Assembly: GCA_035477215.1 (NCBI GenBank)
Contig: DATIKU010000049.1
Location: forward strand, 1-64,000
Direction of reading: 5' to 3'
DNA length: 64,000 bases
From: Spirochaetota bacterium
GTDB lineage: Bacteria > Spirochaetota > UBA4802 > UBA5368
Within the stretch, counting starts at the first letter, position 1. Every line of letters starts with the position of its first letter. Below, in pieces: positions 4,577 to 48,003 of the stretch. Below the pieces are notes generated by a model that worked only from the letters and a program-made list of their open reading frames with translations, was not told where the DNA came from and ran no database searches. Made by a program: the position numbers and the translations under genes.

Positions 4577-5638
4577 ATGAAAAACGGGATCACCTTTTCC
4601 GGATTCGTGTTCGTATGCGCCGTCGCGCTCCTCCTCCCCGGGCCGGGCGCGCTGTTCGCCGAGTCGGTCTTCCTTAAAGACGGAAGCATAGTAGAGGGGA
4701 ATATCGCAAAGGAGACTGACACGGAGATTCAGATAACGCTCAAAACGAAGGAACAGCGATCGCTTCCGCGCAGGGACGTTCTGCGCACCGTCTATCACGA
4801 TGAATACAGGCAGCTCCGGTATATCCACCTGTTGAACGGCGATGTGCTCGAAGGGTATATCGTGGACGAGGACCGGGAGAGCTACACCTATCGGAAGGAC
4901 CTCGCCTCGAATAAAGAGAACCGGGTGGCGAAGACCAAAGTCGATTTCGTCTCGAAGAACAGGGTCGCGGCGCGTGCCGGAAAGGACGGCGCCGAAAAGC
5001 GCGAAGAGAAGGTCGCGCCGGCCGGAAGCAGGCAGGAGGGCATCGTCTCGCGCGCGGCGAAGCTGCGGGCGGGCTACGGTTTCGGGACCGACCTTGGTTT
5101 TGAACAATGGGACAACAAGGATATCTTCAATCTCGACTATTTTCCCTCCAGCTACCGGAACAGTCGCGCGAACGGCTTTGATATGCTTGCGCGGATTAAG
5201 ATGCATAAATTGCAACAATATGATAGCGCCATCGGTGATGCCGATTTTCACAATTGGATTGGAGAATCCCTGTTGCCGGCGACTTCCACAATAAATGAAA
5301 TAGAAATGACCCATCTCGGAGTCGGTTTAGGCGGGCGGGCTGTTTATGGGTGGTATATTTTCGGTGTGTTGTGGCAGGGGTATACTTCGGCTCTTATTCA
5401 ATACTCCAGCGTTGATTTATGGTGTAAATATCAGGATGTGGGGATCAGTTACAGTCGATCCATCAGCAAGAACGCGGTGGGCGTTGTTTCGGCAATTGGG
5501 ATAGAACTTGGATTGACGAAGTATATAGGCGTGTATGTCGAAGGTAATATCGGTTATGTGCCGGTGTTCCATTCCAATCAGAATCTGGAAGAGCCGTCCT
5601 TGCTTTTCGGCGCGGTGTGGAGGATGTCGTATCTGTAG
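4577..5638 (+). CDS. LSm-like / outer-membrane beta-barrel protein (intact paralog)
   Basis: The product has 353 residues. A signal peptide ends near LFAES. Two tandem small beta motifs follow: FLKDGSIVEGNI to LRTVYHDEYRQ, and LLNGDVLEGYIVDEDRE to KVDFVSKN. A charged linker (about residues 140-165) leads to a C-terminal domain rich in aromatic and alternating hydrophobic residues, ending VWRMSYL, typical of an outer-membrane barrel. It is the uninterrupted paralog of the gene at 1966-3107 and a good reference for that frameshift. I do not recognise a named family. The beta motif resembles the LSm/SH3-like small barrel seen in many secreted spirochaete and deltaproteobacterial proteins. A role in surface structure or anchoring is inference. 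Confidence 0.75.
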   Translation: MKNGITFSGFVFVCAVALLLPGPGALFAESVFLKDGSIVEGNIAKETDTEIQITLKTKEQRSLPRRDVLRTVYHDEYRQLRYIHLLNGDVLEGYIVDEDRESYTYRKDLASNKENRVAKTKVDFVSKNRVAARAGKDGAEKREEKVAPAGSRQEGIVSRAAKLRAGYGFGTDLGFEQWDNKDIFNLDYFPSSYRNSRANGFDMLARIKMHKLQQYDSAIGDADFHNWIGESLLPATSTINEIEMTHLGVGLGGRAVYGWYIFGVLWQGYTSALIQYSSVDLWCKYQDVGISYSRSISKNAVGVVSAIGIELGLTKYIGVYVEGNIGYVPVFHSNQNLEEPSLLFGAVWRMSYL

Positions 5639-5766
5639 AATCCCCTCGGCCTCCGGCGGCTCCCCTTCAGTAAAGGGGAGCCTTATCAAGGTGGCTGGTG
5701 TGTATATATAGTTACCTTAACAGGAGCCCCCTTTATCAAAGGGGGCGGCCCGGCGGGCCGGGGATT
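5639..5766. repeat. Palindromic intergenic element with AATCCCC/GGGGATT ends
   Basis: The element starts one base after the preceding stop codon. AATCCCC (5639-5645) and GGGGATT (5760-5766) form inverted ends. Inside are two strong hairpins: GGCTCCCCTT/AAGGGGAGCC near 5658-5682 and GCCCCCTTT/AAAGGGGGC near 5726-5746. A related pair of ends occurs at 15141-15334. It is probably a miniature, non-coding repeat element, and may also end transcription of the upstream gene. Confidence 0.5.
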
Positions 5767-5794
5767 TAAATTATTCAGCCAGGTAAACACACCA

Positions 5795-8942: not shown

Positions 8943-9443
8943 ATACGTCGGTTAATGTACGTCCGCGATATGCCGTTGTCGTGGCGGCGATTTCTCCGAT
9001 AGAGTTGATGCATAACCGGGAAATCCGATATCCCCGGTACTGCAACAAGATATAAGTATATAACGGGATGGGGGCTTTACACAATTACTTTCCTATGCCG
9101 GGAAGCGTTCTCGCCCGTCCGGTACGAGCGGAATACGTTGACACGCGTACTTTGGAACAGGCGAGCCGGTGTTTAATAAATCAATATATAAATAAATTAT
9201 AGGGCACTACTGTCTCATGAAATTCAGAAGTGCGGCCTCGCGTAAATGGCGCCGTTCACGCTACCGTCGGCGTCCGCCGTCGCGAGGACTCCCGTCTTCG
9301 GTGTCGATTCAAAATGCTGTTCGGTTTCCATATAGCCCCGGAGGCGGAAAGATTTCCAGAAAATTATTGTTTACAAAATCCCCCCGCCGTATCGAAGGTC
9401 TCTAGCATATGGGGCCAGTTCTGAACACCAATGGAGGAACGGA
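8943..9443. other. Gene-free region holding one hairpin repeat
   Basis: About 500 bases upstream of the carbonic anhydrase gene. It holds a copy of the GTTGCA/TGCAAC hairpin repeat at 9001-9050, then a stretch with an AT-rich patch around 9170-9205. No convincing coding potential is seen on either strand. Confidence 0.5.
9001..9050. repeat. Intergenic hairpin repeat, copy A
   Basis: Left arm GTTGATGCATAACCGGG and right arm CCCCGGTACTGCAACAAG form a nested stem with one mismatch. It is one of five related copies; the others are at 14877, 23604, 27123 and 47895. Confidence 0.6.
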
Positions 9444-14753: not shown

Positions 14754-14876
14754 GATTCGCTCCTCTATGCGCGTATAAATGGTATTCCGCTGTTTCGGAA
14801 TCGCAGCTCTACGGGATGTATTCGCCGACTCCCGGCGCGGTCCATCGGCATTGTGAACGCGATGCGGCCGGCATAA

Positions 14877-14919
14877 GACCTGTTGCACGACCCGAGTATT
14901 CCCGATTTTGCAACACGCT
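14877..14919. repeat. Intergenic hairpin repeat, copy B
   Basis: TGTTGCA at the left pairs with TGCAACA at the right; inside, CGAGTATTCCCG matches the inner stem region of the other copies. It lies about 125 bases upstream of the dctP start. Confidence 0.6.
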
Positions 14920-15140: not shown

Positions 15141-15334
15141 AATCCCCTCGGCCGCCGGGCCGGCTAATGACGCTACCTCCTGTCGCGACGTCGGCATCAG
15201 CACGTCGTGTGCGTCGGCTCGATCGAGAAGGATTGTTTCGTCTCTTGCCACAAGTGGGAGACGAAAATACTGCAAGAAGTTTTATGCTCAGGAACACACT
15301 TTATCGAAGGGGGTGGCCCAAAGAGCCGGGGATT
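15141..15334. repeat. Possible second AATCCCC/GGGGATT-bounded element
   Basis: AATCCCCTCGGCC begins at 15141 and GAGCCGGGGATT ends at 15334, matching both ends of the element at 5639-5766. The interior differs and is longer. It may be a diverged copy, or two half elements side by side. Confidence 0.4.
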
Positions 15335-15466
15335 TAAAATCGTTGCGGCGCGCCGGCCTGTTTCGAGCGCAGTCGAAGAGCAGCGGGGGGTGCGGTAAAA
15401 TGGTTGACCCGAAGACGCACTATGTGACATAATATGCCCCTGTGGGATCGGCCCGCTGAAAGGAAA

Positions 15467-23594: not shown

Positions 23595-23603
23595 ATAAAA
23601 AAA

Positions 23604-23690
23604 TAGAGTTGCTGCATAACCGGGGAATATAGAGGCCTTCCCCCGCCCGCGGCGGGGAAAGGCGATATTCCCGGGATTTGCAGCAAGCCT
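23604..23690. repeat. Intergenic hairpin repeat, copy C (long form)
   Basis: TTGCTGCA pairs with TGCAGCAA; then CCGGGGAATAT with ATATTCCCGG; then an internal hairpin TTCCCCCGCC/GGCGGGGAA. The outer pair uses C-G where the other copies use T-A, a compensatory change. It lies between tetR and the SCP2 gene. Confidence 0.75.
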
Positions 23691-23711
23691 AATAAAAAAA
23701 GGAGGTACTCC

Positions 23712-24113
23712 ATGGCGGTTTTTAAAAATGCGGAAAGCATGCTGGAGATTCTCGGGGGGATGTTTTCGATAGTTTTACAGGATAAGGAGGCCGGGCCAAA
23801 ATTCAAGGATGCGGGTGTCGTTATAAGATTCAATATAACCGATCCTGACGCAATTCTCTGGGTTGATACGGTGAATATGCAAGTCCTGAGCGGCAATCAG
23901 GACATTAAGGCAAACGTGGAAATGGATTTAAGCGGCGATTCATGCCACGAGTTTTGGCTGAAAGAGTTAAAGCTCCCGATAGCCCTGGCCAAAGGTAAAA
24001 TCAAAGCGAGGGGTCCCATGCCTACCATATTAAAGCTCCTGCCCCTGTTAAAACCCGCATATGATATGTACCCCGGTATCGCCAGAAAGAACAATCTTCC
24101 GGTACGGGGATAG
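23712..24113 (+). CDS. SCP2 sterol-carrier domain protein
   Basis: A 133-residue protein. VVIRFNITDPDAILWVD, VEMDLSGDSCHEFWLKEL and KLPIALAKGKIKARGPM follow the SCP2 fold, which binds lipids or acyl-CoAs in a hydrophobic tunnel. It is the first structural gene after tetR, separated by hairpin repeat C. AGGAGG precedes the ATG. It probably carries or presents a hydrophobic CoA substrate to the enzymes encoded downstream. Confidence 0.85.
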   Translation: MAVFKNAESMLEILGGMFSIVLQDKEAGPKFKDAGVVIRFNITDPDAILWVDTVNMQVLSGNQDIKANVEMDLSGDSCHEFWLKELKLPIALAKGKIKARGPMPTILKLLPLLKPAYDMYPGIARKNNLPVRG

Positions 24114-24142
24114 TTCAATCACACAAGGGAAAGGAGATCATT

Positions 24143-24820
24143 ATGAGCAAAGAGAAAGCGATGAAACAATTCGAAGAGGACCGTATCCAGGCGGCAAAGA
24201 TTGCGGCAAGGCTTCTTCTCGCGTCATGCACGACTTCCCCCCGCGTGGGGGGTGTGGGCGAGTGCACGACTCATATCCTTGATGATGAGTGCGCCATCGA
24301 GGATCTCTGTCAGAAAACCGAGGAGTTGTCCGGTGAAAAGGCAAGCTGGGGTTTTTTCAAGAGGGATGCCGCGATGCTGCGCGATGCCGACGCGGTGCTT
24401 CTGGTAACGTCCCTTAGAAGCCTTACCGACCCGGCGGACATCAGTTGTAATATGTGCGGATATATGACCTGCGATTACATGCGGGAGGTAAAGAAAATTG
24501 AGAAGGGACCGGGTATCGCCTATACGGGGCCTCTGTGCTCTTTCAGGGCGACCAATATCGCCTATGCCGTAAGCGGCATCGTGACCCAGGCCCGGAATTT
24601 AGGCATCGACCATGGAATATTCTGGTCGGCCGGAGCGGCGGCGATGCGCATGGGGATTCTCCCAAGGGATACCGGTTTTGCGCTGGCTGTCGGTATCTCG
24701 GTGACCGAAAAGTCGCCCTTCAGGGATATTCCGCTGCGCTACGATGAAATAAACGACAGAACCATGAATGACCGGATAATTCGGAGACTGTGGCCCATAT
24801 TCCGGTCAATATACAGCTAA
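24143..24820 (+). CDS. DUF2148 ferredoxin-like domain protein (first copy)
   Basis: A 225-residue protein of the DUF2148 type. SCNMCGYMTCDYM (about residues 111-123) then GPLCSF supply four Cys suited to an Fe-S cluster or zinc. An N-terminal segment has additional Cys in LLASCTTSPR and GGVGECTTH. It is 30 bases after the SCP2 gene and followed within 12 bases by a diverged second copy. The biochemical role of the family is unknown. Its place in a CoA operon suggests an electron-transfer or scaffold role, which is inference. Confidence 0.8.
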   Translation: MSKEKAMKQFEEDRIQAAKIAARLLLASCTTSPRVGGVGECTTHILDDECAIEDLCQKTEELSGEKASWGFFKRDAAMLRDADAVLLVTSLRSLTDPADISCNMCGYMTCDYMREVKKIEKGPGIAYTGPLCSFRATNIAYAVSGIVTQARNLGIDHGIFWSAGAAAMRMGILPRDTGFALAVGISVTEKSPFRDIPLRYDEINDRTMNDRIIRRLWPIFRSIYS

Positions 24821-24831
24821 AGGAGGGTACC

Positions 24832-25482
24832 ATGGTAAGAATTGAAATGAAGGAATTAATCGATAATGGTCTTGCCAGGGCCGTGGAGCTTATGGCCGTG
24901 GCGGCCTATAACGCGATAAAATTCAGCGACAGAAACACGATTAAAATCGTCGCGTTGGGAAAGGACGACATGGAACTGATCTCTGAGTTTTGTTTTTCCC
25001 TCGGGGACATGTCGCCCCTGGGCTCCAGGGACGGCCGTGCGCTCCAGGCCATGATGAAGGAGCCAATGGCCATGATGGTCATCGGCGATAAAAGAAAATC
25101 CGATTTTAACTATAACTGCGGCGCCTGCGGCTACAAAACCTGCGCGGAATTGAACAAGTCCGAATTAGTCGAAGCTCTCACATCCAATGGCCCCTACTGC
25201 CTGTTCAAGTCGATCAACCTGCACATGGCCGCCAACGCAGCGGCCGCCATGGCATGGCAGCTGGGCCTGCAATGCAGGGTGTTCAGCACCTTTGGATTTG
25301 GCGCGAAAAGCATGGAAGTTATGTCGGACATCGATACCGCGGTTGCCGTGCCGGTAAGCGTGGCGAAGCGTGATCCCTACTTCGACAGGCACCAGTATTG
25401 GACCAAGGAGCATTGGGATGCAATCTTCGAAAAAGAATTCCCTACGTTCGTCCGGGGGTTTATCGGCGCAATTGAAGAATAG
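24832..25482 (+). CDS. DUF2148 ferredoxin-like domain protein (second copy)
   Basis: A 216-residue paralog of the preceding protein. NYNCGACGYKTCAEL and GPYCLFKSINLHMAANAAA match SCNMCGYMTC and GPLCSFRATNIAYA at the same spacing. It lacks the N-terminal Cys of the first copy. AAAGGAGG before ATG 24832 fixes the start; the longer reading from 24790 overlaps the first copy's end. The conserved pair suggests a heterodimer. Confidence 0.8.
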   Translation: MVRIEMKELIDNGLARAVELMAVAAYNAIKFSDRNTIKIVALGKDDMELISEFCFSLGDMSPLGSRDGRALQAMMKEPMAMMVIGDKRKSDFNYNCGACGYKTCAELNKSELVEALTSNGPYCLFKSINLHMAANAAAAMAWQLGLQCRVFSTFGFGAKSMEVMSDIDTAVAVPVSVAKRDPYFDRHQYWTKEHWDAIFEKEFPTFVRGFIGAIEE

Positions 25483-25514
25483 GAAGCGAGGAATTTTTAC
25501 GGAGGTGTATTCTA

Positions 25515-27125
25515 ATGGGCAAGGAACATTTAAATCAGGCGATCTGCTCTCATAACATCGAGATCAAGGCGGATGAATCGCCCGACAGGGAGATATTGAC
25601 TTTTATCGGAGGGGTGGAAGACGAGCACCTGACCTATAAAGATGTATATGAGAATTCGAACAAGGCGGCGCGGTTACTTCTGGATAGCGGCATAGACAAG
25701 GGTGATAAATATATCGTGCTGATGCATAACTATCCTGAGTTCGTATATTCGCTTTTGGCGGGGCCGACGGTGGGGGCCATGATGATACCCGTCGATCCCC
25801 GGTCAAAGGGCGGCAGGTTGGAATACTATTTCCGAAATTCAGGAGCGAAAGGCGTAATAGTCTCTGATGTTTGCCTTCCGCAGATAGAGGAAGTATTGCC
25901 GAATCTGCCGAAATTGAATCTGATTTCTGTCGTATCGAGGCCGGAGTCCAAGATCGCTCCAACAACCAGGTTCCATAACTTCAATGAGGTAATTCAGAAA
26001 ACCTCCTGGCAGCGGGTCGACCAGCAGATATTCGATGTCCGCCAGCCCATGCAGATCATCTACACATCCGGCACCACCGGAGATCCCAAGGGAGTGATGG
26101 TCCGAAACAGCAGGACCGGTGTATTCAATATCATGACCCGTCTGATATGGAGATATCACAGGGACAATGATAAACTGTACACAGGACTTTCACTCACCCA
26201 CGGCAACGCGCAGGCGGTAACGCTCTTTCCCGCGATGTACCTGGGAGTGAAGGCCGTGTTCAGCCATCGGTTTACAAAAAGCAGAATATGGGACATCTGC
26301 CGCAAATACGGGTGTACGTCCTTTTCGCTCCTCGGCGGTATGCTCGCCGGCATTTTTATGGAACCGGAACGGCCGGAAGATTCCGAGAATCCCGTAAACC
26401 TCGTCATCAGCGCCGGCACCCCAATGGTGCTATGGGAGGCCTTTGAGAAGAGATTCGGGGTTAAGATCCTTGAGTGGTACGGTGCGGTTGAGGGAGGATT
26501 CGCCTGCAACCAGGTCGGCAAGGGTCCTATCGGATCTTTCGGAAAACCGGTGCCGGGAGTGATGGAAATGAAGGTCGTCGATGAGAATGAAAATGAAGTG
26601 GCCCCGGGCGAGAAAGGGGAGCTTATATGTAGAAATATCAAGGGCGAAACCAGGGTTGATTACTGGGGCATGCCCGAGGAATCCGAAGCGAAGACGCGGG
26701 GCGGATGGCTCCGCACCGGCGATATCGTTCATAAAGACGAGGACGGATGGCTCTACTTCGATCATCGCAAGGGATCGGAGTTAAGGAGGTCGGGCGATTT
26801 CATACAACCGGAACATGTTGAAAAGATCATCGGAGAGCACCCCGATATCAGCGACATTTGCGTGTATGGCGTTCCGGCGGCATCCGGCGCTCCCGGAGAA
26901 AGCGATATCGTCGCGGCAGTTGCGCCCTTTGAAGGGAAATCCATCAATCCGGCGGCGATATACGACAAGTGCAAGAAGGATCTGGAAGCGAACTTCATCC
27001 CTTCATATCTGCAAGTTGTAAGTGAAATCCCGAAAACCGTTTCTGAAAAGAACCTGGATCGGAAGCTCAGGGAGGATTTTCAAAAGGGCGAGGGCGTTAT
27101 TTATAAGTTTGATGATTATAAATAG
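25515..27125 (+). CDS. CaiC-like acyl-CoA synthetase (AMP-forming)
   Basis: A 536-residue adenylate-forming enzyme. Motif A3 is IIYTSGTTGDPKGVMV, A5 is LEWYGAVEGG, A7/A8 are GWLRTGDIVHKDEDGWLYFD and RRSGDFIQP, and the A10 Lys region is PKTVSEKNLDRKL. It resembles crotonobetaine/carnitine-CoA ligases and related acid:CoA ligases. It would activate a carboxylic acid with ATP and CoA and thus start the pathway encoded by the operon. The stop codon overlaps the start of hairpin repeat D. The true substrate cannot be inferred. Confidence 0.88.
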   Translation: MGKEHLNQAICSHNIEIKADESPDREILTFIGGVEDEHLTYKDVYENSNKAARLLLDSGIDKGDKYIVLMHNYPEFVYSLLAGPTVGAMMIPVDPRSKGGRLEYYFRNSGAKGVIVSDVCLPQIEEVLPNLPKLNLISVVSRPESKIAPTTRFHNFNEVIQKTSWQRVDQQIFDVRQPMQIIYTSGTTGDPKGVMVRNSRTGVFNIMTRLIWRYHRDNDKLYTGLSLTHGNAQAVTLFPAMYLGVKAVFSHRFTKSRIWDICRKYGCTSFSLLGGMLAGIFMEPERPEDSENPVNLVISAGTPMVLWEAFEKRFGVKILEWYGAVEGGFACNQVGKGPIGSFGKPVPGVMEMKVVDENENEVAPGEKGELICRNIKGETRVDYWGMPEESEAKTRGGWLRTGDIVHKDEDGWLYFDHRKGSELRRSGDFIQPEHVEKIIGEHPDISDICVYGVPAASGAPGESDIVAAVAPFEGKSINPAAIYDKCKKDLEANFIPSYLQVVSEIPKTVSEKNLDRKLREDFQKGEGVIYKFDDYK

Positions 27126-27176
27126 AGTTGTTGCATGACCGGGGGATGCCGCATTCCCGAAATTTGCAACAAGCCT
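27123..27176. repeat. Intergenic hairpin repeat, copy D
   Basis: TTGTTGCA pairs with TGCAACAA, with an inner CGGGGGATGC/GCATTCCCG stem. It starts in the stop codon of the ligase gene and ends 44 bases before the acyl-CoA dehydrogenase start. Confidence 0.75.
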
Positions 27177-27219
27177 GATGAACATCTCAAGACCATGTGG
27201 TAAAAACAGGGGGAAATAT

Positions 27220-47861: not shown

Positions 47862-47894
47862 GGGTATCGTACGAATACTGTACATCACCATTTA

Positions 47895-47977
47895 ACTTGT
47901 TGCACAGCCGGGTAATACGGGGTGTCGCCGTGTCTTCGTCGGGGGGCGCCCCGGCAGCTTGTGGACTCGCAACAAGT
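47895..47977. repeat. Intergenic hairpin repeat, copy E (long form)
   Basis: ACTTGTTGC (47895-47903) pairs with GCAACAAGT (47969-47977), with GC-rich inner sequence. It lies in the probable leader of the FecR lipoprotein gene, 26 bases before its start. Confidence 0.6.
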
Positions 47978-48003
47978 CCATTTAAATCATACGGGAGGAT
48001 CTT

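Follow-up and report, generated by a model that had tools for sequence, protein, structure and literature searches.

The intergenic hairpins dispersed along the window, as we call the whole 64,000-nucleotide stretch of spirochaete DNA analyzed here, are very probably copies of a non-autonomous mobile element (MITE) of ~90 bases that is related to an IS5-family transposon and would be moved in trans by an IS5-family transposase. They are not a novel regulatory RNA. Mobile repeats of this sort are known; what is new is their host group, little-studied spirochaete bacteria. An earlier note on this DNA had recognized a hairpin family with several copies in the window, and all five places could be read directly: the 16-base left-end consensus TTGTTGCATRACCGGG, with up to three mismatches, gave six matches against 0.73 expected by shuffling, every one at a place named there (both ends of copy A, and copies B, C, D, and E; Table 1). 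Copies A, C, D, and E are united in a single dispersed family, to which B belongs weakly. The unit measures 86–89 bp, with internally deleted short forms of 44–60 bp, and terminates in imperfect inverted repeats (AGAGTTGTTGCATAACYGG.../...AAGTCT) of ~16–20 bp, namely AGAGTTGTTGCATAACYGG and AGACTTGTTKCAWATC, which in aligned copies also read AGAGTTGTTGCATAAC / AGACTTGTTKCAWATC; the middle is a variable G+C-rich central hairpin. The aligned window copies have the ends AATAGAGTTGTTGCATAACCGGG and TTTGCAACAAG in common. The shared architecture described in the earlier note, outer TGCA-type arms around a CCGGG...CCCG stem, fits copies A, C, and D well, but E has the ends without the right-hand CCCG, and B is weak and short, with no covariance-model match at E ≤ 1 in the scan of its own genome. 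The MITE has no coding capacity (the unit is shorter than 100 bp and stops lie close to both ends), and a tRNA was the sole match in an Rfam scan of the window.

Table 1 MITE copies and adjoining target sites in the window (corrected limits of the copies, duplicated target excluded; E, covariance-model E value)
Feature	Position	Strand	Description
Copy A left flank	8998-9000		GAT; right target copy decayed
Copy A	9001-9052	+	Short, internally deleted MITE; E 0.86
Copy B	14876-14919	.	Weak short copy, upstream of DctP-type solute-binding protein gene
Copy C left target-site duplication	23602-23604	.	AAT
Copy C	23605-23690	+	Full-length MITE in TetR-family/SCP2-family intergenic gap; E 1.2e-21
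Copy C right target-site duplication	23691-23693	.	AAT
Copy D left target-site duplication	27121-27123	.	AAT; its T is base 1 of the TAG stop 27123-27125
Copy D	27124-27176	+	Short MITE in AMP-binding enzyme/acyl-CoA dehydrogenase gap; E 1.1e-6
Copy D right target copy	27177-27179	.	GAT, differing from AAT at one base
Copy E left target-site duplication	47890-47892	.	ATT
Copy E	47893-47979	+	Full-length diverged MITE in serine hydroxymethyltransferase/FecR-domain gap; E 2.3e-5
Copy E right target-site duplication	47980-47982	.	ATT

The edges of the copies carry the mark of transposition. In the same-genus MAG G003 (Spirochaetes bacterium isolate QR_Bin.4), conservation ends abruptly at both edges of 50 copies with flanks, with AAT or ATT as the outermost triplet on each side. 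The middle base of these triplets is concordant between the two sides (A/A in 20 copies, T/T in 16, mixed in 3; Fisher p = 6e-8), as it is in the own genome, where it is the same in 29 copies and complementary in 8 (p = 0.004); the window pairs of copies C, D, and E are given in Table 1. Since a helix end would not predict an identical middle base, the A(A/T)T flank is a 3-bp target-site duplication, its two sides being identical, which is the opposite of base pairing.

A search for the same ends placed ~1 kb apart led to a 957-bp insertion sequence in G007, a genome of the same family, with ends matching those of the MITE, terminal inverted repeats AGACTTGTTGCATAACT/AGAGTTGTTGCAAAACT, and AAT on both sides (AAT, AGACTTGTTGCATAACT ... 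AGTTTTGCAACAACTCT, AAT). Its two overlapping ORFs match HTH_Tnp_4 (PF13613, E = 1.8e-8) and DDE_Tnp_4 (PF13359, E = 7.9e-13) and, weakly and below the curated cut-off, the NCBIfam IS5 transposase model NF033581 (E = 4.9e-13); the transposase is of the DDE type and of the IS5 family. Within this family, ISL2-group elements are some 0.9–1 kb long, often with two ORFs, and their 3-bp target duplication has the form ANT. By its length, two-ORF layout, and AAT duplication, the source transposon probably falls in that group, from which elements of 914–991 bp, some having two ORFs with a predicted −1 frameshift, are on record (PMC3196728), a length and layout like those of the G007 element. In contrast with an IS5-family/ISL2 element, the MITE retains the ends only and has an unrelated interior (type II MITE).

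Traces of such elements persist closer to the window. In the own genome, a truncated relative (L200, 47% identity over 86 aa) adjoins an end, AGACTTGTTTCTTAACT; in G003, a left end and the first transposase residues remain (L202); and insertion-sequence remnants in the genus carry AGAGTTGTTTCTTAACT, slightly unlike the MITE ends. No intact transposase with exactly the MITE ends was detected in the draft assemblies of the own genus, and five genus genomes contained no PF13359 match. Draft assemblies often lose multicopy insertion sequences. Other candidates were discarded: the PF01609 genes (a broken one in the own genome, L125, and L126 in G001), neither of which has MITE ends, and a locus with ends 954 bp apart (G034:C52) that encloses a regulator-type gene and no transposase. 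We infer that the copies were mobilized by a transposase of the G007 type or one closely related to it. Acting in trans, this enzyme would bind and cleave at the two terminal inverted repeats and insert the element at A(A/T)T, duplicating these 3 bp. The middle of the element is a short palindrome, rich in G+C and variable in sequence. Hairpins arise because nearly the whole element is an inverted repeat, two terminal repeats with almost nothing between them, and any effect on neighboring mRNAs would be incidental.

The family extends well beyond the window. A longer left-end pattern matched 14 times in the own 3.57-Mb genome and never in a reversed control. A covariance model, as the earlier note had proposed, was built from an alignment of nine full-length own-genome copies and revealed further copies genome-wide, at ~45 places at E < 0.05 (counted as distinct places; many of the palindromes score on both strands). 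There were at least 109 model matches in G003, 30 in G004, 22 in G001, and 6 in G002, all congeners, and mostly zero or few in genomes of other families. Among 84,980 GTDB genomes, a set that may omit the own genome, the exact left end occurred in QR_Bin.4 only. Copies in G003 are on average 74% identical in pairwise comparison (maximum 95%) and those of the own genome 55%; the former represent a more recent burst and the latter an older, decaying set. Identical ends flanked by AWT also surround other central hairpins, in several families across the order. G001 has a second MITE type (L189-L195 and L197) of ~150–215 bp, with similar ends AGACTTGTTGCTTTACT and GTCATTGCGAGCCCCGGTCGTATCGGGGCGTGGCAATCT-like palindromes inside, several copies of which lie near contig ends. 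The window contains two other kinds of repeat: a separate family, CAGGAGCCCCCTTTATCAAAGGGGGCGGCCCGGCGGGCCGGGGATTTAAA, with two copies (5721-5770 and 15289-15338, 82%), and a 98-bp direct repeat (2026-2123 and 4643-4740, 74% identical) within neighboring ORFs, which probably reflects paralogous genes.

Copies C and D lie in one operon (TetR - SCP2 - ... - AMP-binding enzyme - acyl-CoA dehydrogenase) that is syntenic in G002, G003, and G004 at 66–70% identity. Neither copy is present in the orthologous operon of these three genomes; at 67% identity the orthologous sites allow no base-level alignment, so that this is absence rather than a perfect empty site. The earlier note was right that one copy starts inside a stop codon. 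The ORF upstream of D (25515-27125) ends GAT TAT AAA TAG, the T of its stop codon coming from the end of the duplicated AAT and the AG from the first two positions of the element. Judging from the flanks, this ORF without element and duplication would end GAT TAT AAA TGA, so that the insertion of D would have swapped one stop codon for another. At the junction occupied by D (27126-27200 of the window), G002, G003, and G004 (L139, L140, and L142) have unrelated hairpins, for example GGGTTCAGGCATGCCTGAACCC. We considered the hairpin TTCAGGCATGCCTGAA of the relatives as a second repeat family and rejected it, the G002/G003 core being single-copy in those genomes; an intercistronic hairpin therefore occurs at the D junction in differing forms.

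With respect to genes in general, none of 98 copies interrupts one, as called by a simple codon-based gene caller, with 85% of the window coding. Copies are scarce in gaps between converging genes (0 of 48 in the own genome and 2 of 49 in G003; pooled p about 0.01), and in co-directional gaps they prefer the sense orientation of the next gene (36 versus 18, p = 0.02; gaps and orientations were counted for L016-L040 and L157-L176 of the own genome and L065-L104 of G003). Intergenic placement is usual for MITEs (PMC10969869); the orientation bias is mild. One copy with almost identical flanks is common to three species just upstream of a gene that, as judged by eye, is flagellin-like (L008/L022, G000:C25:4952-5045; L057, G004:C60:1675-1768; L051, G002:C244:about 954-1039), with the left end kept and the centre diverged. 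It is an old insertion that may have been co-opted in the 5' region.

The main competing explanation is a structured RNA, that is, an intercistronic hairpin governing mRNA processing, stability, or translation and selected for pairing. The window copies do fold more stably than shuffled sequence (z-scores down to −7.4, the value of copy C), and the sense-strand preference and the paucity of copies in converging gaps (2 of 97) go in the same direction. The earlier note had seen selection on structure in the outer arms, where copy C has GCTGCA/TGCAGC. That pair is present, but it is not significantly compensatory across copies: in G003 the position is T/A in 37 copies, C/A in 6, C/G in 2, and T/G in 2 (Fisher p = 0.12), so that a C in the left arm usually faces an A as a mismatch; for the own genome, p ranges from 0.10 to 0.30. 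More generally, one-sided changes in the outer arms far outnumber two-sided ones, paired changes are in weak surplus at a few other positions, and the RNAalifold covariation term is unfavorable for the nine own copies. The inner hairpin behaves otherwise, since several of its positions covary significantly among 38 G003 copies (kinship and arm-to-arm correction may contribute) and the lengths of the C and G runs of the central hairpin correlate in G003 (rho 0.44); the copies were picked by a structure-scoring model, which favors paired ones. In the G003 copies L065-L104, however, the central loop occurs in both orientations (TGC in 15, GCA in 12), as though one arm were corrected to the other or the palindrome flipped. 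Replication-linked correction or flipping of the palindrome, together with subfamilies, explains the inner covariation as well as selection would. Added to this, copy positions differ between congeners, and the structure is accounted for by the duplicated targets and by a transposon that shares the ends, which leaves a structured RNA very unlikely. A partial co-option, in which sense copies upstream of operon start codons would act as intercistronic RNA hairpins, the flagellin-side copy being ancestral in the three species and the covariation coming from selection, is also improbable, if a little less so.

Two other kinds of palindromic sequence fit the data worse than a MITE does. REPs, elements of 20–40 bp with GTAG or CGTC at one end, the GTAG ones being tied to tyrosine transposases, resemble these copies as short, often clustered intergenic palindromes (PMC3733652), and the own genome has two Y1_Tnp genes. 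Yet G003, the copy-richest genome (73% complete), has no Y1_Tnp (PF01797) match, and neither tag is present at the MITE ends. In addition, a unit of ~90 bp with two inverted ends, a 3-bp target duplication, and a DDE transposase is not what has been described for REPs, and we regard movement by a RAYT tyrosine transposase as extremely unlikely. Intrinsic terminators, or another convergent hairpin type, would account for hairpins between genes, and one terminator-like match does lie within copy C on the minus strand. Against this, the sense strand has no U-tract after the hairpin, terminator-like sites number 5 versus 6.1 in shuffled sequence (terminator and promoter scans gave no excess), copies sit within operons and hardly ever in gaps between converging genes, and they are homologous in sequence over ~90 bp. 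We consider its probability negligible.

The MITE reading agrees with what is known of such elements in other prokaryotes, where they are mobilized by IS elements (e.g., Nezha, Correia/NEMIS, and ERIC) and share with the present family a length of 50–500 bp, terminal inverted repeats, short direct repeats, the lack of a transposase gene, intergenic location, hairpin-forming transcripts, and dozens to hundreds of copies (PMC10969869). This one differs from known MITEs by its sequence family and host group and by a G+C-rich central hairpin that varies by species; our literature search found no paper on MITEs in this spirochaete lineage. Identification of the hairpins as a MITE explains a conspicuous feature of the genome and is otherwise routine annotation of mobile DNA. 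Copy D provides a clean example of how a MITE with a stop codon in its ends can land exactly at the end of an operon gene. Across many genera of a single spirochaete order, one set of transposon ends is combined with differing central hairpins, and one species has seen a strong burst.
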